From positions 88,486-152,485 of the forward strand of contig DWXK01000006.1 in NCBI GenBank assembly GCA_019119205.1: 64,000 nt of DNA. The letters run 5' to 3'. This DNA is from Candidatus Mediterraneibacter intestinavium (GTDB lineage: Bacteria; Bacillota; Clostridia; Lachnospirales; Lachnospiraceae). The translations under genes were made by a program, and so were the position numbers. The number at the start of each line of letters is the position of its first letter. Position 1 is the first letter of the stretch. The notes beneath the pieces were generated by a model, which worked only from the letters and a program-made list of their open reading frames with translations, was not told where the DNA came from and made no database searches. Shown here in pieces: positions 53,161-56,412 of this stretch.

Positions 53161-53256
53161 ATGTACGTTACATACAGCGATTTATTCACATTTGTAACCA
53201 TGCTAGTTGCTGTTATTACCCTTGTTATAACCATCAATAAGCATAACAAAAAATAG
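53161..53256 (+). CDS. Holin-like type I toxin (Hol-Tox-like), copy 2
   Basis: MYVTYSDLFTFVTMLVAVITLVITINKHNKK*; SD AGAAAGGGG; leader aligns with that of copy 1. Confidence 0.7.
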   Translation: MYVTYSDLFTFVTMLVAVITLVITINKHNKK

Positions 53257-53440: not shown

Positions 53441-54178
53441 TCAGGGCTCTTCCACTCCCGCCAGATCTTTCATCTTCTCATATGTAAAATGATTGAACAC
53501 TGCAATGGTCCGTCCCACGCCGATCATGGCAAGGACCGTTCCCACTCCGACACCCACCAGATGCCCGGCGAACGCGAAGCTTAAGACAAGCGTGATCGTG
53601 ATATTGGTCAGGTCAAAGCAGTTCTTTGTAAATCCTACACTCTTATATATCGTGTCTGCGATCGCCTGCACGATCCCGTCCCCCGGGTTCGGCACGATCC
53701 GCATATCCAGCGACATTGCCGCCCCGATCCCGGTCAGGATGATAGCGATGATCAGGCAGATCACACGGACCGCCATCTCCTCTGCCGTACTCTCTCCATC
53801 TGAATAGAGATTCGGGATCACAGCGGAGAACACATTCAGGAAACGGGTGAACACAATGCTCAGCGGGATCTGGAGAAAATCCATCAGAAAGATCAGCTTC
53901 AGGTCCTTTTTCTCTGCATGGGCAAGCGCCTCACCTGACCTTCCCGAATATCTTATATGGCGGATCAGGTGCAGCACCATCTCGATCACAACAAAGACAC
54001 AGTAAAGCGCCAGCGTCATGTCACCGAAATTATGATCGAAGATCGTCGCAATGCTGTATGCCACCGAGATGATCGGCGAGACTCCAAGCCCCGTCTTTGT
54101 GTTCAGGGTGAGCCCGAGCGCCAGGATAAGAAGCCCGGCGGCATAGAACAGGATGCGGTAAATAATTTGTTTTTTCAT
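53441..54178 (-). CDS. YczE/YyaS/YitT-like integral membrane protein
   Basis: 245 aa; ILALGLTLNTKTGLGVSPIISVAYSIA; RBS ggagggg. Confidence 0.8.
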   Translation of the reverse strand: MKKQIIYRILFYAAGLLILALGLTLNTKTGLGVSPIISVAYSIATIFDHNFGDMTLALYCVFVVIEMVLHLIRHIRYSGRSGEALAHAEKKDLKLIFLMDFLQIPLSIVFTRFLNVFSAVIPNLYSDGESTAEEMAVRVICLIIAIILTGIGAAMSLDMRIVPNPGDGIVQAIADTIYKSVGFTKNCFDLTNITITLVLSFAFAGHLVGVGVGTVLAMIGVGRTIAVFNHFTYEKMKDLAGVEEP

Positions 54179-54252: not shown

Positions 54253-54436
54253 CTATTTTAGACGTTTTCCGCAGGATTTGTCAAATTTTTGCTTTTTGTA
54301 ATATCAGACCGGGACCCGCCTCGGACCTCCGCCCCATACTTCCCCGCCTCACCTCCGCGTCGCTGACACACCCCCGCGTCGCTGACTTGATTCTCTTCCG
54401 GCTAGATGCTATATTAATCTCACCGAACATACATTC

Positions 54437-54458
54437 CACCTTTTACCCTTAAAGGTGG
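54437..54458. terminator. Terminator-like hairpin
   Basis: CCACCTTT-taccctt... AAAGGTGG followed by TATTTTATA; lies in the region preceding the response-regulator remnant. Confidence 0.45.
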
Positions 54459-54501
54459 TATTTTATATGATATTTTCCATCGACATACAGGAGGACCAGC
54501 C

Positions 54502-54897
54502 ATGAACACCATACTTCTTCTGGAAGACGACGCCAACTTAAACCGCGGGATCTCCCTCAAACTTCGGAAAGAAGGCTACGACGTATACTCCGCTTTCACC
54601 GTAAAAGAGGCGGAAGACCTTTTCTCCGCATGCAGTCCCGACCTGATCATCAGCGACATCACTCTCCCGGACGGGAGCGGTCTGGACTTCTGCGCCGGGA
54701 TACGCAAAAAGAGCAGTGTCTTTATCCTCTTTCTGACCGCCATGGATTCGGAGATCGACATGGTGAACGGGTATGATATAGGCGCCGACGACTATATCAC
54801 CAAGCCCTTCAGCCTGATAGTCCTGGTCTCCAAGGTCCACGCTTTCATGGGGATGTCTCCTATGAGGACCTGCTCTCCGGCGATAAGCTCCTCGTGA
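54502..54897 (+). pseudogene. Truncated OmpR-type response regulator (receiver domain only)
   Basis: MNTILLLEDDANLNRGISLKLRKEGYDVYS..GADDYITKPFSLIVLVSKVHAF, then out-of-family tail; no DNA-binding domain. Confidence 0.75.
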
Positions 54898-55640
54898 ACT
54901 GGACATTTCAGTACTGGCACCCGGAAAGCAGATTGGGCGATCCTGTCCGCATCCTGTTCGACACACCGGACGGTCCTGTCGAGAGGACCTTTGAGCTGGC
55001 AGGCATCTGCCATTACTCTTCCGGATTTACTGACTCGGAGTTCATACTTCCGGAGAGTGTGCTCTCAGAGATCTGCCCCTATGATCTCACCAATACCTGC
55101 GAGATCACCGTAGATGCGGCACAGAAAGAGACCGCTTACGAGACACTTCAGTCGCTCGCAGATACAGACGAGCGTTTTGTATCAGATACCTATGAAGACT
55201 TCGTCGCCCAGTGGGAGAGCGTGACTTCCTTTATCAGTCTCGCCGGATATACATTCATGATCATCCTTGGCGCCATCGGCGTGATGAACCTGGTCAATAC
55301 CATGATCAACAGCGTCTATACAAGGAAACACGAACTGGGCATCCTGCAGGCTGTCGGCATGTCCGAACGCCAGCTCACCCGCATGATGCAGATGGAAGGA
55401 CTGTTCTACACCCTTTTTACTCTGATCCTCTCCCTGGGACTGGGCAGCCTTGCCGGATACGCCGCCTTCCTCTATGCCCGGAGTGAAGGACTGATGAACA
55501 TCACCGTCTTCCACTATCCGTTCCTGCAGGCGGTCCTTCTCGCCGTCACTGTTGCGGCAGTACAGCTCATCCTCACATTCGCGGTGACAAAGAGTTTCCG
55601 GCGCACGAGCCTGATCGAGCGGGTAAGATATTCGGAGTAA
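54849..55640 (+). pseudogene. 3' portion of an FtsX-like ABC transporter permease (5' truncated)
   Basis: Frame reads GDVSYEDLLSGDKLLVNWTFQYWHPESRLGDPVRI...GVMNLVNTMINSVYTRKHELGILQAVGMSERQLTRMMQMEG...; N-terminal TM missing. First ATG-type ORF at 54894. Confidence 0.75.
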
Positions 55641-55824
55641 CTGTGAAATTTTTGTGAAACACAGCGAAAGAGAGCCTTTTGCCCTTGACATCCGGTGCTA
55701 TAATGTAACTGTAACAAAGAAACACACTTAACAACACCTATTTGTCCTGCATCCGCTCAATGCGGATAAAGCAGCAAAGTTGAAGGCTTGCTAAGCGCGA
55801 TTCAGTGATTGGAGGAAAAGATAA

Positions 55825-56412
55825 ATGAATACTTTAAAAGCTGAAAGAAGAGACATGACAGTAAAAGCCAAGAAACTTAGACGTGAAGGATTTGTTACAG
55901 GCAGTATCTTCGGTCGCGAACTGGAAGAGACCATACCGCTCAAGATGGAGAAAAGCGCGGTAGAACGTCTGCTCAAAGAAGAAGGCAAGGGCGGACAGGT
56001 CATGCTCGAGATCGAAGGCAAAACCTATGATGCACTGATCAAAGAAGTGGATTACAATCCGTTAAAAGGCTGCATCGACGAGATCGATTTCCAGGCACTG
56101 GTAGCTGGTGAGAAGGTTCATTCCACTGCAGAGGTCCATCTGGTCAACCTGGAGAAACTGGCTGCAGGCGTTCCGCAGCAGATGCTGCATGAGATCGCAT
56201 TCAAGGCGCTTCCGTCTGCACTGGTTGATAAAGTTGAGATCGATGTGGGCGACATGAAAGTCGGTGATACGCTCAAAGTATCCGATTTGACGATCGCACA
56301 TACAGAAGGTCTGGATCTGACGACAGATGCTGATGCGACAGTAGTCACGATCACTGAAGTCCACGCAGCTCCGGCAGATGATGCAGATACAGAAGATGAG
56401 GCTGCAGAGTGA
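55825..56412 (+). CDS. rplY: 50S ribosomal protein L25 / general stress protein Ctc
   Basis: 195 aa; L25 beta-barrel then CTC C-terminal domain (VHSTAEVHLVNLEKLAAGVPQQMLHEIAFKALPSALVDKVEIDV). Confidence 0.92.
   Translation: MNTLKAERRDMTVKAKKLRREGFVTGSIFGRELEETIPLKMEKSAVERLLKEEGKGGQVMLEIEGKTYDALIKEVDYNPLKGCIDEIDFQALVAGEKVHSTAEVHLVNLEKLAAGVPQQMLHEIAFKALPSALVDKVEIDVGDMKVGDTLKVSDLTIAHTEGLDLTTDADATVVTITEVHAAPADDADTEDEAAE

Follow-up and report, generated by a model that had tools for sequence, protein, structure and literature searches.

A probable recent deletion scar of a response regulator, sensor kinase and ABC transporter operon in Candidatus Mediterraneibacter intestinavium

In a stretch of 64,000 nucleotides of Candidatus Mediterraneibacter intestinavium DNA, referred to here as the window, an open reading frame that begins as an OmpR-type response regulator gives way within a few codons to a different frame encoding the end of an FtsX-like ABC transporter permease. 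The question that this locus raises is whether it represents a pair of small functional genes, an error of assembly, two unrelated pieces brought together by rearrangement, or the two ends of an operon whose centre has disappeared. We favour the last of these, a recent deletion scar of a response regulator-kinase-ATPase-permease operon, with a probability of roughly 0.93. The ancestral operon would have encoded a response regulator, a sensor kinase, an ABC ATPase and an FtsX permease with eight transmembrane (TM) helices; about 4.0 kb was presumably lost by illegitimate recombination, either homology independent or guided by microhomology, and with it would have gone the regulator's output domain, all of the kinase and the ATPase, and the N-terminal two thirds of the permease.

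Anatomy of the junction

The 131-residue response regulator frame (54502-54897) contains a PF00072 receiver domain at residues 4-112 (Pfam search, E 2.5e-22) with conserved D-D-T-K residues, and the Trans_reg_C output domain that is present in an intact homologue, the 232-aa regulator of locus L032, was absent from this frame in the same search. Residues 1-116 align with the L032 protein without gaps, and the identity ends at Met116; residues 117-131 are permease sequence read out of frame. At the nucleotide level, 54502-54852 is 86.6% identical to the regulator gene of G071, a genome of the same genus, with the match ending at the join (blastn/local alignment), and the region upstream of the gene is partly conserved with G071 as well (54382-54436, 80% by blastn).

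Coding sequence in the permease frame runs from 54849 (GDVSYEDLL...) to 55637, and the resulting 263 residues, which carry a PF02687 FtsX match (Pfam, E 2.9e-14), align ungapped to residues 563-825, the extreme C terminus, of the intact 825-aa permease of L032. The end of the G071 permease gene matches 54856-55658 at 73% of nucleotides (blastn/local alignment), and the piece is 67% identical in amino acids to its counterpart in the G071-type intact operon. Hydropathy analysis of the intact G071 permease (829 aa) predicts eight TM helices and two large extracytoplasmic domains, and of these the three C-terminal helices and the distal half of extracytoplasmic domain 2 survive in the remnant. The longest reading frame with an ATG, GTG or TTG start in this frame begins at a GTG and encodes 248 aa (54894-55640). 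The original prediction, made from the window alone, described a receiver that loses its family resemblance, followed in another frame by the C-terminal two thirds of a MacB/FtsX-like permease; the receiver, the frame and the family were correctly called, and the permease piece proved to be the C-terminal third (263 of 825-829 aa).

On either side, homology to the intact proteins is bounded exactly by the join. To the left, the window and G071 agree perfectly over the 24 bases that end at G54849, after which G071 has C; to the right, the permease codon GGG begins at 54849. Because this G is the only base certainly common to both sides, the join would be blunt or microhomology mediated. The regulator and permease frames differ across the join, and the regulator frame reaches its stop at 54897. 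Compared with the intact G071 operon, the window is without everything from regulator codon 117 through permease codon ~562, a single clean gap of 3,990 bp when calculated as the difference between the two collinear match diagonals. A deletion of the regulator output domain, kinase, ATPase and permease N terminus, with endpoints near 54.84 kb, had been postulated beforehand, and the junction lies within ~10 bases of that position. The features of the locus are collected in Table 1.

Table 1. Features of the deletion locus and its flanks (positions in the window)
Feature	Position	Strand	Basis or detail
YczE/DUF6198-like membrane protein, upstream flank, syntenic with G007	53441..54178	-	Pfam and synteny
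Response regulator gene upstream region	54382..54501	+	Promoter-like TTGATT-17-TATATT at 54387-54415; AGGAGG ribosome site at ~54489
OmpR-family response regulator 5' remnant, receiver domain whole, output domain lost	54502..54849	+	PF00072; nucleotide identity to G071 response regulator
Deletion junction	54849..54850	.	Regulator codon 116 (ATG) fused out of frame to permease codon ~563 (GGG), ~1-bp overlap
FtsX-family permease 3' remnant, last 263 aa and stop	54849..55640	+	PF02687; ungapped alignment; TM prediction
Response regulator frame tail, out of frame through permease sequence, stop TGA at 54895-54897	54850..54897	+	Reading frame and alignment
Ribosomal protein L25-type gene (rplY/ctc-like, named by sequence), downstream flank	55825..56412	+	Synteny with G007 and G071

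A false join in an organism that really has the intact operon would create the same appearance, and the assembly is fragmented (81.6% complete, 104 contigs), which means that an intact copy might sit on unassembled DNA. We nevertheless regard an artefact of this kind as very unlikely. The breakpoints in G071 share only ~1 base, and false bridging by a k-mer is impossible for that reason; an independent assembly, that of the isolate An427, shows both flanks in unchanged order; and no contig of this 81.6%-complete assembly carries an orthologue of the lost kinase, for which the best matches (36-40% identity) are domain-level paralogues, or of the lost permease N terminus, for which the best matches reach 26-28%.

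Intact and broken relatives

The gene order that had been ascribed to clostridial clusters of this type (regulator, kinase, ATPase, permease) was found complete within the window's genus in G071, G081 and G068 and in most of 22 public-genome loci, including those of Lachnospiraceae and Clostridioides difficile; G079, also of the same genus, has the ATPase-permease part up to a contig end. Examples of the intact operon family are provided by G071, L032 and L048. G017 was rejected as an intact reference: its regulator, kinase and ATPase genes are open, and its permease is without residues ~62-279 and contains a frame break; G071 and L032 were used in its place. The window locus resembles the intact Lachnospiraceae and C. 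difficile operons in the gene order of its ends and has rplY downstream, as does G071, in which rplY lies ~2.8 kb beyond the permease with two further reading frames between them.

On the upstream side of the locus, a 31-aa reading frame on the forward strand of the window (53161-53256; MYVTYSDLFTFVTMLVAVITLVITINKHNKK) matches the Pfam family Hol_Tox (PF16935) at 24.3 bits, against a cut-off of 23.3, and is likely to encode the small toxin of a type I toxin-antitoxin system. DNA similar to this region is present in several copies in G007, and an Rfam search of 50-60 kb of the window yielded no RNA family.

Relatives were expected to be informative, and in addition to the intact operon of G071 they include a sister isolate, Mediterraneibacter glycyrrhizinilyticus An427 (G007, NZ_JACJLR010000039.1), with a different breakage. 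An427 has the same permease end, at 96% amino acid identity, between YczE and an rplY gene that adjoins the permease; unlike the window, it has wholly lost the regulator, kinase and ATPase, and a separate deletion has removed 413 bp from the interior of its permease relative to G071. At the An427 locus (L028, G007:C175, contig ~11317-11918), the space between the YczE-like gene and the permease remnant is occupied by part of a PTS transporter gene, on the opposite strand and split between frames, which abuts the permease remnant; the window's genome contains no close copy of this fragment. The rearranged state of the An427 locus, PTS fragment included, lends some colour to the idea that an insertion or rearrangement united two unrelated pieces in the window, as opposed to a single deletion within an operon already in place, but the pieces correspond to the two ends of a single G071 operon, the upstream sequence is partly collinear and rplY follows downstream, and we consider such an origin extremely improbable.

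Had the short receiver and truncated permease been found together in many genomes, a conserved and functional arrangement would have been indicated, as the original prediction recognised. This did not materialise: the join was present in 0 of 40 other genomes searched, and no second locus with this arrangement turned up in 58 genus genomes (57 besides the window's). A functional minimal pair, in which a receiver-only protein would be coupled translationally to a short permease through a GTGA overlap at 54894-54897, could appeal to the retained D-D-T-K residues, to the overlap of the regulator stop with the permease-frame GTG and to a low dN/dS of the permease piece, which could mean that the fragment is still in use. 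It is barely credible all the same. In addition to its absence from the other genomes searched, no common product is conserved, because An427 is broken at other points; the permease piece has no ATPase and has lost extracytoplasmic domain 1 together with five of the eight TM helices predicted for the intact protein; and its continued use would have to be reconciled with the want of both an ATPase partner and a conserved start. The resemblance of the GTGA overlap to translational coupling appears to have arisen by chance.

The permease is present in 8 of the 58 genus genomes (E below 1e-45), and half of these copies look broken, each differently. They are those of the window's genome, G007, G017 and G008; in the last (L030), decay or sequencing error may explain why the ATPase and permease of a related operon are divided between frames. 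In the family sample the permease occurs in 24 of 397 genomes, the window's included, and besides the window's two more copies look broken: the G205 operon has multiple internal deletions, and in G372 the permease N terminus is missing. The G205 locus (L092, G205:C309, 593-2852), from another genus, represents a further collapse of this operon that took place independently; here the regulator is whole, the kinase has an internal deletion and ATPase residues 113-172 are joined to permease residues 594-828. Because four of eight genus copies look broken, in different places and with the permease hit every time, inactivation of the transporter may perhaps be favoured in some hosts, beyond mere tolerance; repeated selection for operon loss in gut Lachnospiraceae is nonetheless a doubtful proposition to which we give little weight. 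A literature search on pseudogenes in Mediterraneibacter found nothing relevant. For the question of how sensing and export modules turn over, it is of modest interest that related gut bacteria show repeated independent breakage of this operon.

Age of the loss and state of the remnants

Over the 222 permease codons shared by the window and G007, there were 22.5 synonymous and 8.5 nonsynonymous changes, giving a dN/dS of 0.109 that is comparable to those of other pairs of the same permease (0.12-0.20) and far from neutral (binomial p 5e-8). When changes were polarised with G071 and G079, which are distant outgroups (dS about 1.1-1.2) and allow the direction of change to be read at only a fraction of the sites, the window branch received 1 nonsynonymous and 9 synonymous changes (p 2e-5 versus neutrality) and the G007 branch 6 nonsynonymous and 4 synonymous changes, the latter being indistinguishable from neutrality. 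These counts indicate that the permease codons were under purifying selection on the window branch until recently, and it is for this reason that we consider the loss to be recent.

Neither remnant of the deleted operon should be functional: the regulator piece is a lone receiver that has lost its DNA-binding domain and its cognate kinase, and the permease piece has three helices and no ATPase. Annotation of the two reading frames as pseudogene fragments would be preferable to calling one a receiver-only regulator and the other a short permease. The locus offers a clean case of an operon lost recently, its endpoints exactly defined, and of the ordinary gene decay of an accessory sensing and export module.

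The lost module and Bce-type systems

In the intact operon an OmpR-type response regulator is accompanied by a kinase that has two TM helices, an ATPase resembling LolD, MacB and FtsE, and a permease containing two FtsX domains; this gene content suggests that the operon would be a signal-responsive export or envelope-protection module. In the G071 kinase, the TM helices are predicted at residues 9-27 and 118-136, with a loop of ~90 residues between them. The closest matches of the intact permease (825-829 aa) among sequences of solved structure are YtrF, LolF and MacB, and no BceB chain was among these matches.

The architecture of the Bce-type antimicrobial-peptide modules (BceRS-BceAB) has been described (PMC10314905). 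The operon resembles these modules in having four components, with a two-component system beside an ABC transporter whose permease is of the FtsX type. BceS, an intramembrane-sensing kinase, has a short loop between its TM helices. The intact kinase differs from BceS in the length of this loop, and the permease, a protein of 825-829 aa with eight predicted TM helices and two extracytoplasmic domains, differs from BceB in the proteins that it matches; judged by these two features, which were the ones tested, the ancestral operon is not of the Bce type.
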